A stretch of DNA of 64,000 nucleotides, taken from Sphingomonas hankookensis (GTDB lineage Bacteria > Pseudomonadota > Alphaproteobacteria > Sphingomonadales > Sphingomonadaceae). Below are positions 43,530-49,083 of this stretch, one piece after another. The stretch's first letter is position 1; each line of letters opens with the position of its first letter. The stretch lies in NCBI RefSeq assembly GCF_001619955.1, contig NZ_LQQO01000001.1, positions 496,001 through 560,000 of the forward strand. Direction: 5' to 3'. Made by a program: the position numbers and the translations under genes. The notes beneath the pieces are model-generated. The model was not told the origin of the DNA and did no database searches. It saw only the letters and a list, made by a program, of their open reading frames with translations.

Positions 43530-45797
43530 ATGGTTGCAGCGTTAACGGAACCGAAGCGCGCCACATCGATCCCGGCGCAGTGGTTCCCGGCGATCGAGGT
43601 CGCCGTATTGGGGGCGGTGATCGCCGTCGGTGTCGGCAGCTATCTGCTGTTCGACGGATCGCAGAGCACGCGGGGCCAGTTGCCGACGCCGTCGCTGATG
43701 GCGCTGGTGCTGATCGCGAACCTGATCCCCGCCATGGCGCTGCTGGTGCTGGTCGGCCGGCGGATCGCGATGCGCCGCGCCGCCCGGTCGCAGATTGGCG
43801 GTACGGGGACGCTTCACGTCCGGCTTGTCGCGCTGTTCTCGATCCTCGCCAGCGTACCGATGCTGCTGGTCACCATCGTCGCGTCGTTCCTGTTCCAATA
43901 TGGCGTCGAATTCTGGTCCTCGCCACGTGCGCGCGGCATTTTCGAGAATGCCCAGGTACTGGCGCAGTCGTCCTACAATGAATTTCTCGATGCGGTTGAC
44001 GGTCAGAACGTCGCGGTCGCCTCCGACATTCGTCGCATGCTGCTGAATAATCGCTACTCGATCGACAGCGACGAATTCCGCCTGCTGTACCAGAACAGCA
44101 TCGTGTTCCGCTCGCTGAGCGATTCGGTGGTATTCGAGATTCCGCCCGACGGCCGCCCGCGTTCGCTGGCGTCTGCCTCGATCTACGAAGGCCCGTTGCG
44201 CTGGAGCATCGATCCGAAGTCGATCGCTGCCCTGCGCGCCGGCAAGCCCAGCTATGTCAGCGTCCGCAACCGGCAGGTGCAGTCGGTAACGCGGGTGATG
44301 GACACGCCTTATTATGTCTATTCCGCACGCGACATCGACCTCGCGACTTATACCGAACGTCTCAGCCGCACCCGTGCGATCCTGTCCGATTACGACGCGC
44401 TACTTGCCCGCTCCCGCAGCGTCCAGCTCCGCCTGAACATCGCACTGTTCGTCGTCTCGCTCATCATCGTCGGCCTCGCCGTCTTCGTGGCGCTAGCCGT
44501 CGCCGACCGCCTCGTCCGCCCGGTCGGCGCGCTGGTCGGCGCCGCCCGCCGCGTGGCCGGGGGCGACCTGTCGGCGCGCGTGCCTGAGCCAAACGGCACA
44601 CGACAGAAGGACGAGATCGGCACGCTGGCCAGCGCCTTCAACAGCATGACCGAACGGTTGCAGGAACAGACCGGCGAACTCGTCGCCGCCAACGCCCAGA
44701 TCGACAGCCGCCGCGCCCTGATCGAGGCGGTCATGTCGGGCGTCAGCGCCGGCGTCGTCTCGGTCGGCCCCGACCGTACGATCAAGCTCGTCAACAGCTC
44801 GGCCACCGCGCTGCTCAAGACCGGCAACACCCCGCTGGTCGGCCGTCCGCTGGGCGATGTCGCCCCCGAACTCGACGCGCTGCTGGGCGGCGAGACGCAG
44901 GACGCGATCATCCAGCTGGCGTCGGGTGGCGAGGCCAAGACGCTCGCCGTCCGCATCACTCGCGACGATGGCCAACACATCCTGACCTTCGACGACATCA
45001 CCCAGCAGCTGCTCGACCAGCGCCGCGCCGCCTGGTCCGACGTTGCCCGTCGCATCGCGCATGAGATCAAGAACCCGCTGACCCCGATTCAGCTCGCCGC
45101 CGAACGGCTCCAGCGCCGCTATGGCACCAAGCTGACCGAAGACGATGGCACCTTCGCCCGCCTGACCGAGACGATCGTCCGACAGGTCGGTGACCTGCGC
45201 CGCATGGTCGACGAATTCTCGTCCTTCGCGCGGATGCCGAAGCCCGTATTCCGCCACGAATCGATCGCCGAGCTCGCCCGGCAGAGCCTGTTCCTGCACG
45301 AGGTTGCGCATCCCGACATCGATTTCGCGCTCGAATCCGCCGGCGCCGCGCCGCTCGTCTGCGACCGTCGCCAGCTGGGACAGGCACTCACCAACATCGT
45401 CAAGAACGCGACCGAAGCCGTCGCCGCCCGTCCCGAAGGCGCCCCCCGCGGCCGGATCGAAATGGACGTCCGTTACGATGCGCAGGGGCGGATGCACATC
45501 GATACCAGCGACAACGGCATCGGCCTGCCGATCGAGCGCGATCGCATCGCCGAACCCTATATGACCACGCGCAAGGGCGGCACCGGCCTCGGCCTCGCCA
45601 TCGTTCGCAAGATCGTCGAAGAACATTTCGGAACCATATCGTTCGCCGACCGTCCCGGTGGAGGGACGATCGTATCGATCATCTTCGATCCCGCGATCCT
45701 GGCCGCGCTGGCCGGGACCGGGACAGCGGAAGATGACGATTCACAGGAGGTTACAACGCGCCACCCCATGCTTACCCGGACCGGAACGCCCGCATGA
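43530..45797 (+). CDS. ntrY: Membrane sensor kinase NtrY
   Basis: A 755-residue histidine kinase. N-terminal membrane segments are at about residues 18-40, 55-73 and 90-115, followed by a periplasmic region and another helix near residues 305-325. HAMP (ADRLVRPVGALVGAARRVAG), PAS (VMSGVSAGVVSVGPDRTIKL) and kinase domains follow, with the phosphoacceptor RRIAHEIKNPLTPIQLAAER, ALTNIVKNATEAVA and RKGGTGLGLAIVRKIVEEHF. It pairs with NtrX and links to nitrogen and redox control in alphaproteobacteria. The ATG at 43530 (MVAALTEPKRA) is preferred over 43500. Confidence 0.94.
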   Translation: MVAALTEPKRATSIPAQWFPAIEVAVLGAVIAVGVGSYLLFDGSQSTRGQLPTPSLMALVLIANLIPAMALLVLVGRRIAMRRAARSQIGGTGTLHVRLVALFSILASVPMLLVTIVASFLFQYGVEFWSSPRARGIFENAQVLAQSSYNEFLDAVDGQNVAVASDIRRMLLNNRYSIDSDEFRLLYQNSIVFRSLSDSVVFEIPPDGRPRSLASASIYEGPLRWSIDPKSIAALRAGKPSYVSVRNRQVQSVTRVMDTPYYVYSARDIDLATYTERLSRTRAILSDYDALLARSRSVQLRLNIALFVVSLIIVGLAVFVALAVADRLVRPVGALVGAARRVAGGDLSARVPEPNGTRQKDEIGTLASAFNSMTERLQEQTGELVAANAQIDSRRALIEAVMSGVSAGVVSVGPDRTIKLVNSSATALLKTGNTPLVGRPLGDVAPELDALLGGETQDAIIQLASGGEAKTLAVRITRDDGQHILTFDDITQQLLDQRRAAWSDVARRIAHEIKNPLTPIQLAAERLQRRYGTKLTEDDGTFARLTETIVRQVGDLRRMVDEFSSFARMPKPVFRHESIAELARQSLFLHEVAHPDIDFALESAGAAPLVCDRRQLGQALTNIVKNATEAVAARPEGAPRGRIEMDVRYDAQGRMHIDTSDNGIGLPIERDRIAEPYMTTRKGGTGLGLAIVRKIVEEHFGTISFADRPGGGTIVSIIFDPAILAALAGTGTAEDDDSQEVTTRHPMLTRTGTPA

Positions 45798-47176
45798 AGC
45801 TCGACATTCTCGTCGTCGACGACGAAACCGACATCCGTGAACTCGTCGCCGGCGTTCTGGAGGACGAAGGCTATGAGACGCGCGGCGCGGCTGACAGCGA
45901 TGCCGCACTCGAAGCGGTGGCCCAGCGGCGTCCATCGCTGGTGCTGCTCGACGTGTGGCTGCAGGGTTCGCGCCTCGACGGGCTTGAGTTGCTCGACGAG
46001 TTGAAGGCGCGCGATCCGTCGTTGCCGGTGCTGGTCATTTCCGGCCATGGCAATATCGATACCGCCGTCGCCGCGATCCGGCGCGGCGCCGTCGACTTCA
46101 TCGAAAAGCCGTTCGAGGCAGAACGGCTGCTCTTCCTCGTCCAGCGTGCGACCGAAACCGAGCGCCTGCGGCAGGAGGTCGCGTCGCTGCGTGCCTCGGC
46201 CGGCCGCGAGGACGACCTGACCGGCAGCTCGACCGCGATCAACAGCGTCCGCGCAACGCTGAAGCGCGTCGCCGGCACCGGTAGCCGCGTGCTCATCACC
46301 GGCGGGGCAGGGGTCGGCAAGGAAGTCGCCGCCCGGCTGCTCCATGGATGGAGCCAGCGGGCACAGGCGCCATTCGTCATCGTCAGCGCGGCGCGCATGA
46401 CGCCCGAACGTGTCGACGAAGAACTGTTCGGCGTAGAGGAGGGCGGCAATCTCGTCCGGCCCGGCCTGCTCGAACAGGCGCATGGCGGGACGCTGTTCCT
46501 CGACGAAATCGCCGACATGCCGATCGCGACCCAGGCGCGTATCCTGCGGGTGCTGACCGACCAGAGCTTTACCCGCGTCGGCGGCACGCGGGTCGTGAAG
46601 GTCGATGTCCGCGTCGTCTCGGCGACCGCGCGCGATCTTCAGCAGGAGATCATCGACGGCAATTTTCGCGAGGATCTCTATTACCGCCTCAACGTGGTGC
46701 CGGTGCAAATCCCCTCGCTGGCCGAACGGCGTGAGGATATCCCCCCGCTGGTCGAACATTTCGTCGCGCATTACGCCAACGAACGCCGGGTCCAGACGCC
46801 GGAGGTCGCGCCCGACGCAATGATCGCGCTGCAAAGCTATGAATGGCCGGGCAATGTCCGCCAGCTGCGCAACGTCGTCGAACGCACCGTCATTCTGGCA
46901 CCGGGCAACCGTATCGCGCGGATCGATATCGATCTGTTGCCGCCCGAAGTGCTCGGCTCGGCAGGCGACGGGGCGGGGGGCGCCACCGCCAGTGCGATCA
47001 TGGGATCGCCGCTGCGCGAGGCACGGGAGTCGTTCGAACGCGAATATCTGCGGGTTCAGATCCGCCGCTTTTCGGGCAATATTTCGCGCACCGCGACCTT
47101 CATCGGCATGGAACGCTCTGCGCTGCACCGCAAATTGAAGCTGCTCGGCATTACCGAAACGCGCGGCGACGAATAG
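45794..47176 (+). CDS. ntrX: Response regulator NtrX
   Basis: A 460-residue NtrC-like regulator paired with NtrY (4-nt overlap). The receiver domain has VVDDETDIREL and the phospho-Asp in LVLLDVWLQGSRLDGLELLD. The AAA+ domain has Walker A ITGGAGVGKEVAAR and Walker B GGTLFLDEIADM. The GAFTGA loop that contacts sigma54 is missing: the place reads ELFGVEEGGNLVRPGLLEQA. A C-terminal Fis-type HTH is present (GNISRTATFIGMERSALHRK). It should therefore bind DNA without activating sigma54, as described for other NtrX proteins lacking the loop. Confidence 0.93.
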   Translation: MKLDILVVDDETDIRELVAGVLEDEGYETRGAADSDAALEAVAQRRPSLVLLDVWLQGSRLDGLELLDELKARDPSLPVLVISGHGNIDTAVAAIRRGAVDFIEKPFEAERLLFLVQRATETERLRQEVASLRASAGREDDLTGSSTAINSVRATLKRVAGTGSRVLITGGAGVGKEVAARLLHGWSQRAQAPFVIVSAARMTPERVDEELFGVEEGGNLVRPGLLEQAHGGTLFLDEIADMPIATQARILRVLTDQSFTRVGGTRVVKVDVRVVSATARDLQQEIIDGNFREDLYYRLNVVPVQIPSLAERREDIPPLVEHFVAHYANERRVQTPEVAPDAMIALQSYEWPGNVRQLRNVVERTVILAPGNRIARIDIDLLPPEVLGSAGDGAGGATASAIMGSPLREARESFEREYLRVQIRRFSGNISRTATFIGMERSALHRKLKLLGITETRGDE

Positions 47177-47305: not shown

Positions 47306-47800
47306 ATGGCCGAACGGCAAGGGTCGCTTCAGGACCTGTTTCTCAACTCGCTACGCCGGTCGAAGACGCCGGTCACGATGTTCCTCGTCAAGGGCGTGAA
47401 GCTCCAGGGGATCGTGACGTGGTTCGACAATTTTTCGGTGTTGCTGCGCCGCGACGGACAGTCGCAGCTGATTTACAAGCACGCCATCTCGACGATCATG
47501 CCCGCCGGCCCGACCGACCTGTCGTCGGTGATCGAGGCCGCGGCGGAGAATACGTCGAAGCACGCACCGCTGCAGGAAATCTTCCTCAACGCCGTGCGCA
47601 AGGCGCAGGAAAACGTCACCATGTTCCTGGTCAACGGCGTGATGTTGCAGGGCCAGATCGCGGCGTTCGACCTGTTCTGCATGCTGCTCCAGCGCGAAGG
47701 CATGTCGCAGCTGGTGTATAAGCATGCCGTATCGACCATTCAGCCGGCCAATCCGCTGAACCTTGCCGAGGAACAGGCATCGGGAGCGGACGAGGCTTGA
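47306..47800 (+). CDS. hfq: RNA chaperone Hfq with two tandem Sm domains
   Basis: A 164-residue protein instead of the usual 80-100. It is two Hfq units in a row. Domain 1 (about 7-67) has [35 protein letters not shown] and [13 protein letters not shown]. Domain 2 (about 89-149) has [35 protein letters not shown] and [13 protein letters not shown]. Both keep the proximal-face YKH and the N-terminal Gln-Asp/Glu. Domain 1 keeps basic rim residues (RRSK) and the distal Lys (KLQG); domain 2 has RKAQ and MLQG. Three such chains could form a pseudo-hexamer. It ends overlapping hflX as TTGA. Confidence 0.95.
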
Positions 47801-49083
47801 GCACCGGTTTCGACCGCGACGCACAGGAGTTCACCCGCGGCGCTTCGGCGATCGTCGTCCTGCCCGACATGGGCGGGTCGGCGCGCGATGCCGATGCCCG
47901 GTTGGAGGAAACCGCCGGCCTAGCCCTCGCTATCGGGGTCGACGTCCGACACCGCGTGCCCTTCCGCGTCCGCGCCCCCAAGCCCGGCACGCTGATCGGC
48001 AGCGGACAGGTCGATCAACTGGCGCAGATGGTACGCGACGAGGATCTGCAACTCGCGGTCTTCGACGCGGCGCTGACGCCGGTGCAACAGCGCAACCTCG
48101 AAACCGCGCTGGGTTGCAAGGTCATCGATCGGACCGGGCTGATCCTCGAAATCTTCGGCGAACGCGCGCGCACGGCCGAGGGGCGGTTGCAGGTCGAACT
48201 CGCCCACCTCGACTATCAGGCCGGTCGCCTGGTCCGTAGCTGGACCCACCTTGAGCGGCAACGCGGCGGTTTCGGTTTTCTCGGCGGTCCCGGTGAAACC
48301 CAGATCGAGGCGGATCGCCGCCTGATCCGCGACCGGATGGCGCGGCTGCGGCGCGAACTGGATGCGGTTTCGCGCACCCGGACGCTGCACCGGGACCGGC
48401 GGCAGCGTGCCCCGTGGCCGGTCGTCGCGCTGGTCGGCTACACCAATGCCGGCAAATCGACATTGTTCAACCGCCTGACCGGGGCGGACGTGATGGCGGA
48501 AAACCTGCTCTTCGCAACGCTCGACCCGACGCTGCGGCAGGTTTCGCTGCCTGGCATCGACAAGGCGATCCTGTCGGACACGGTGGGTTTCGTTTCCGAC
48601 CTGCCGACTCAGCTCGTTGCGGCGTTCAAGGCCACGCTCGAAGAGGTGGTGTCGGCCGACCTGCTGATTCACGTCCGCGACGTTGCGCATCCCGACACGG
48701 CGGCGCAAGCGTCGGATGTGGAGGCGGTGCTGCGCGAGATCGGGGTCGACGACACGACCCCGCGGATCGAGGCGTGGAACAAGCTCGACCTGTTGAGCGA
48801 GGACGACCGCACCGAGATGCTGGGGGAGGCGGCGCATCGCGAGGATATCGTCGCCTTGTCCGCGCTGACCGGGGAGGGCGTGGATCGCCTGATCCGCACC
48901 GTCGGCGACCGGCTGACCGAAGGGCATCGCCGTTACCGCATCGCGCTGGCACCCGAAGACGGTGCCAGTGCCGCATGGCTCCATGCCCATGGTGAAGTGA
49001 CCGATCATTGGGTCGACGACGACCGTGCATTCTACGATGTGCGAATGGCGCCGGCCGATTATGATCGGTTTCTCACCCGATAG
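47797..49083 (+). CDS. hflX: GTPase HflX
   Basis: A 428-residue ribosome-associated GTPase that helps split stalled or heat-damaged ribosomes. The N-terminal HflX domain has [13 protein letters not shown] and [13 protein letters not shown], with the Gly-rich [19 protein letters not shown] linker. The G domain has [20 protein letters not shown] (G1), [24 protein letters not shown] (G3) and EAWNKLDLL (G4). The start is a TTG at 47797 inside the hfq stop (TTGA overlap), so it is translated with hfq, the conserved arrangement. Confidence 0.95.

Follow-up and report, generated by a model that had tools for sequence, protein, structure and literature searches.

Tandem Hfq of Sphingomonas hankookensis and its family: two regularly diverged halves and a likely three-chain ring

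How does Hfq build its six-lobed ring when a single chain already holds two Hfq domains, and are the two domains equivalent? The question is raised by a locus of Sphingomonas hankookensis within a window of 64,000 nucleotides, the whole stretch of DNA analysed here, in which an open frame with an ATG start (47306..47800, + strand, as are all features of the window below) encodes an Hfq protein of 164 residues. The Pfam Hfq family PF17209 matches this frame in two stretches (E = 8.3e-58, 192.3 bits against a cut-off of 27), and each half singly exceeds the cut-off, with 104.9 and 90.7 bits, in agreement with an earlier note on this DNA that described two complete Hfq units in one frame. A PF17209 search of the whole 3.81-Mb genome finds these two halves as its only Hfq matches. 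The gene is flanked upstream by a response regulator of the NtrX kind, tentatively named from its domains (45794..47176), and downstream by hflX (47797..49083), which served as the species tree marker.

Domain 1 (47327..47512, chain residues 8–69, PF17209 match) has a net charge of +5 and carries the rim motif RRSK at E. coli positions 16–19 (47354..47365, by alignment), together with Lys29 of the chain, a gained lysine at E. coli position 28 (47390..47392), and Lys32, the retained counterpart of E. coli Lys31 on the distal face (47399..47401). An 18-residue linker (47513..47566), in which the model places a short helix at residues 73–79, leads to domain 2 (47570..47758, chain residues 89–151, PF17209 match), whose net charge is 0. 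Its rim reads RKAQ at positions 16–19 (47597..47608, by alignment), Asn110 of the chain preserves the ancestral state at position 28 (47633..47635), and Met113 replaces the distal lysine at position 31 (47642..47644); Glu occupies position 9. A short acidic C-terminal tail (47759..47797) occurs once per chain. These assignments agree with the motifs quoted in the earlier note (half 1 with RRSK and KLQG, half 2 with RKAQ and MLQG, and YKH shared by the two), and its joint of about 20 residues measures 18 between the modelled domains. The protein has the N-terminal helix and five strands of the Sm fold; it departs from classical homohexameric Hfq, with one Sm domain per chain, in having two; and it shares the two Hfq domains per chain of tandem sphingomonad Hfq, with its gene inside the tandem clade of the HflX tree.

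Two-domain Hfq has been described before. In 2010 Yang and colleagues noted two Sm-like domains in the Hfq of Zymomonas mobilis (ZMO0347) and of six other Sphingomonadales, the same arrangement as here, and their passage on this protein asks whether a ring would need only three proteins (PMC2877685). Because both points are already in that passage, neither the fusion nor the three-chain idea is new; unlike the present analysis, the text on Zymomonas Hfq contains no comparison of the halves, origin of the fusion or analysis of surfaces. Novosphingobium aromaticivorans is listed with two hfq-like copies in the relevant part of PMC3474761, and we infer that these copies may correspond to the halves of a single gene. 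What appears to be new is the regular difference between the halves: among the matches listed, a search of open-licence literature found no report of regular half-to-half divergence, of a distal-base exchange or of a single origin.

The fusion extends through most of the sampled family. An order-wide survey of 396 genomes (313 from the same family, 83 from other families) finds two Hfq matches in 300 of the 313 own-family genomes and one in the remaining 13, which fall in 7 of 54 genera, whereas in the other families one match is present in 76 of 83 genomes, none in six and two in one. The fusion is thus lineage-wide, as the earlier note had expected. The second match of that lone two-match genome is partial, covering 38 of 64 model positions on another contig (G001:C82:5520-5633). 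All 47 two-match genera carry both domains in one frame, with at least one genome read for each, and so do all 80 named loci, which are the best 80 of 587 and are biased towards likeness to the query protein; they include Sphingomonas, Sphingobium, Sphingopyxis, Novosphingobium, Erythrobacter and relatives. Sandaracinobacteroides saxicola appears to be among the single-domain members of the family. That the tandem is an artefact of assembly or annotation has next to no probability, because it recurs in all 80 named loci and in every one of the 47 genera, with one or more genomes read for each, and its halves share a mean identity of only 57%.

Beyond the order, a tandem Hfq profile was searched against 385 alphaproteobacterial genomes, five of them drawn from the same family, and 319 had a match. 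Among the matches listed, full-length ones come from the five own-family genomes only, at E = 4.0e-75 or better, and no full-length independent fusion was found elsewhere in the class; none of the other rows listed extends past model position 111 of 165, some of them read through a stop, and the best reaches 1.1e-39. Two genomes from other families of the class (G454 and G701) have two Hfq matches each, which may be two genes or a fusion.

The two halves were compared in a genus-balanced sample, in which a single genome represents each of 46 tandem genera and genus g12 is counted apart as the 47th, and set against 38 relatives with one domain (25 of other families and 13 of the own family). 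One contrast lies on the distal face. Asn28 and Lys31 occur together in 38/38 single-domain proteins, Lys28 and Lys31 in 46/46 first halves, and Asn28 and Met31 in 46/46 second halves. Positions 28 and 31 together hold one base in every single-domain protein, two in every first half and none in every second half. Counted in the alignment, the distal bases of a lobe pair number two, as in ordinary Hfq, but all are on the first half. Since the gain of Lys28 in half 1 mirrors the loss of Lys31 in half 2, the bases seem to have shifted from one lobe to the other instead of simply disappearing. The earlier note had recognised the loss of the distal lysine from the second half, which is fixed in all 46 genera, but its account was incomplete, as it missed the mirror gain in the first.

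The rim differs as well. The ancestral rim consists of R16, K17 (38/38 singles) and a Lys or Arg at position 19 (38/38 singles). All three bases at positions 16, 17 and 19 are present in 38/38 singles and 46/46 first halves but in only 2/46 second halves; among the other 44, 28 have one base, 11 none and five two. Position 17 is acidic (Asp or Glu) in 28/46 second halves, as is position 19 in 23/46. R16 is kept in 30/46 second halves, including that of S. hankookensis, which on this alignment is a mild case of rim loss because only the base at position 19 has gone, replaced by Gln. The claim that the second half has a weakened rim therefore holds broadly for the family and only mildly for the protein on which it was made. 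The placement of K47, a further rim residue, is ambiguous across a one-residue loop difference. One reading, from 81 loci biased towards the query, puts it on an Arg that is mostly Glu or Gln in second halves; the other, from the genus-balanced sample, puts it on the next Arg, which is kept in 46/46, and this reading, less favourable to the case for rim loss, was used in the rim counts. Overall net charge separates the halves without overlap, with means of +4.57 (3 to 5) for first halves and −1.70 (−4 to 1) for second halves across the 46 genera, and 4 to 6 versus −4 to 1 in a set of 230 two-domain proteins. Single-domain Hfq averages +3.9 in the other families and +4.1 in the own family.

The pockets are mostly retained. 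Both halves keep Q8, Y55, K56, H57, F25, L26, G29, V30, L32, Q33, Q52, S60 and T61 in 46/46 genera, and F42 is present in 46/46 first and 45/46 second halves. We take Q8, F42, Y55, K56 and H57 to form the proximal pocket, with the uridine and adenine pocket lists likewise assumed, and N13 and F39 to be lateral residues. Second halves also have replacements of their own: proximal position 41, which is Asn in each of the 46 first halves, is Leu in 41/46 second halves, and Gln63 is present in 46/46 second halves.

Phylogenetic analysis points to a single event. In the HflX tree, 72 tandem rows lie on one side of a single branch (one change, SH-aLRT 81), and a domain tree without g12 places the 46 first halves together (98) and the 46 second halves likewise in a group of their own (100). 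Single-domain Hfq in close relatives, which the earlier note had regarded as telling against its reading, does occur, in the 13 own-family genomes; however, the 11 that entered the HflX tree all lie outside the tandem clade, ten adjoining the tandems and one (L113) placed deeper and apart. Because these 11 of the 13 fall outside, own-family single-domain Hfq looks like the state before the fusion. Of the other two, L117, which is close to L118, was omitted and L119 yielded no HflX; the tree also took 24 of the 25 outside singles, L220 being too short. The simplest reading is probably one fusion with no later loss among the sampled genomes, the support for the tandem clade being moderate (81).

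The gene neighbourhood was compared across the tandem and single-domain loci. HflX lies 3' of hfq in 12/13 own-family and 25/25 outside single-domain loci, and it shares the strand of hfq in each of the 45 tandem genus loci listed and in the 12 g12 loci read. The NtrX-like gene is upstream in 13/13 own-family but only 6/25 outside singles, in 44/45 tandem genus loci listed and in 12/12 g12 loci; a few rows in these neighbour counts are assigned to the wrong side, since open frames overlap.

Both Hfq halves are constrained. Of 3160 pairs from the 80 named loci, 1994 have dS between 0.2 and 1.5 in both halves; over these, half 1 has a median dN/dS of 0.096 and half 2 one of 0.207, and half 2 has the higher value in 1809. 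Over 48 positions conserved in singles, second halves keep ancestral residues at a mean of 0.71, with the distal positions above it (0.91) and the six rim positions below (0.36), with 1796 of 100000 random sets as low as the rim, a result that is suggestive only and uncorrected for the five sets tried. Such numbers also bear on a reading in which the ring alternates but its halves differ simply because a spare copy has relaxed, without the difference having any role of its own. This is possible, if somewhat improbable: half 2 evolves about twice as fast as half 1 by dN/dS, and it has drifted outside the three surface classes too, where it keeps 0.59 of ancestral residues versus 0.70. Set against this are a half 2 dN/dS that is still about 0.2, the fixed or near-fixed replacements Met31, Gln63 and Leu41 in second halves, the Lys28 of all 46 first halves, and the persistence of the 28/31 pattern in the g12 genomes read.

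Genus g12 stands apart from the others. Twelve of its 27 surveyed genomes were read (L134–L145), ten of them picked for low scores, and their genomes are small (2.1–2.6 Mb). Both halves have diverged, most strongly in 10/12, in which the linkers shorten to 9–12 residues, compared with 16–20 residues across the 46 other genera. All three rim bases persist in only 5/12 first halves, and H57Q occurs in 5/12. Even so, positions 28 and 31 hold two bases in 12/12 first halves and none in 10/12 second halves.

Structure prediction addresses how the halves are arranged. AlphaFold returns the full chain with pLDDT 88.5 and pTM 0.84 from 55 aligned sequences, as two complete Hfq folds with a helix in the linker; four of the five models have a mean pLDDT of 87.6–88.5 and one of 68.2. 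A pTM of 0.84 in a chain with two domains of about 65 residues is read as a sign of defined packing, and the single-chain model accordingly predicts that the two halves pack in a defined manner. In a structure search, at least 50 matches align within model residues 1–77 to single-domain Hfq chains and so have no bearing on the ring. The explanation that accounts for the locus as a whole, to which we give a probability of roughly 0.7, is that three two-domain chains close into one six-lobed ring in which strong first-half lobes alternate with weakened second-half lobes. The earlier note had written of alternating faces, which should read alternating lobes, since each domain has both faces. In known Hfq rings, pocket residues lie between neighbouring lobes. 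A different assembly, in which six first halves form the ring and the second halves hang outside or make a second, stacked ring, is unlikely: although self-sorting is conceivable for halves that differ at so many positions, and linkers of 16–20 residues leave some freedom, the whole-chain pTM is read as too high for freely floating halves, the linkers are only 9–12 residues in 10/12 g12 genomes read, and second halves retain the pocket residues that in such rings are placed between neighbours.

Within the proposed alternating ring, first-half lobes with full basic patches would lie next to second-half lobes largely stripped of them. The pockets of all six lobes would go on binding U-rich and A-rich RNA, and the three chains together would present six distal bases at positions 28 and 31, as many as an ordinary ring, grouped as three pairs. 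The acidic tail, one per chain, would amount to one per strong rim, the same ratio of tail to strong rim as in ordinary Hfq.

These surfaces correspond to ones characterised in E. coli. Passages of PMC5606850 describe the acidic tail of E. coli Hfq as binding the basic rim residues R16, R17, R19 and K47, which are needed for annealing, and K31 as exposed on the distal face; rim bases, distal lysine and tail are the surfaces compared here in tandem Hfq. In the relevant part of a preprint (PMC12262471), R16A nearly abolishes captured sRNA–target pairs and K31A lowers them to 28%, while in regulation tests R16A is partly functional and K31A mild. Second halves resemble lobes from which several annealing features have been removed, so a ring with three strong annealing rims is suggested, in which sRNA–target pairing would run mainly on the three first-half lobes. 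The second-half lobes may not be inert, because R16 stays in 30 of the 46. A more specific scheme is tentative and somewhat improbable: a six-fold RNA chaperone would have become a three-fold ring with a division of labour, the distal bases paired on first-half lobes and the neutral or acidic second-half rims acting as built-in RNA mimics that displace paired RNA from the neighbouring basic rim, which in E. coli is the job of the acidic tail.

Whereas E. coli Hfq has six identical lobes, one half of the tandem chain has a weaker, often acidic rim, and unlike tandem Hfq the Caulobacter crescentus protein (PDB 6gwk) has one domain per chain. Eukaryotic Sm/LSm rings consist of non-identical Sm lobes on separate chains. 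The proposed ring shares their non-identical lobes, with its asymmetry set by fusion within one chain; yeast heteroheptamers are named in PMC2877685. When one short gene supplies all six lobes, it is difficult to learn how many of them need a functional rim or distal lysine. With an unequal pair in 47 genera, each half can be mutated separately within a single chain, and a ring of strong and weak lobes could help show how many RNA-handling lobes Hfq needs.

Five metagenome proteins of 241–248 residues (P0001–P0005) extend the series, with three Hfq domains each. Their middle domains have the look of second-half/first-half hybrids with varied switch points, as unequal crossing-over would give. 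These chains may also come from mis-assembly, since their contigs are 1621 bases or less and none of the 396 genomes of the order has more than two Hfq matches. A model of one three-domain chain reaches a pLDDT of only 39, from five aligned rows, and is uninformative. Should the division-of-labour scheme be true, three-domain versions would form two-chain rings.

Two further protein sequences and one feature of the locus itself complete the description. The 120-residue tandem fragment P0253 combines Asn28 in domain 1 with Met31 in domain 2 and is a possible intermediate in which half 2 had lost Lys31 before half 1 gained Lys28. P0236, a tandem of 149 residues, apparently lacks the N-terminal helix of its second domain and the greater part of the linker. 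In S. hankookensis, hfq stop and a possible TTG start of the hflX frame overlap (TTGA, window 47797–47800), an arrangement consistent with translational coupling between the two genes.
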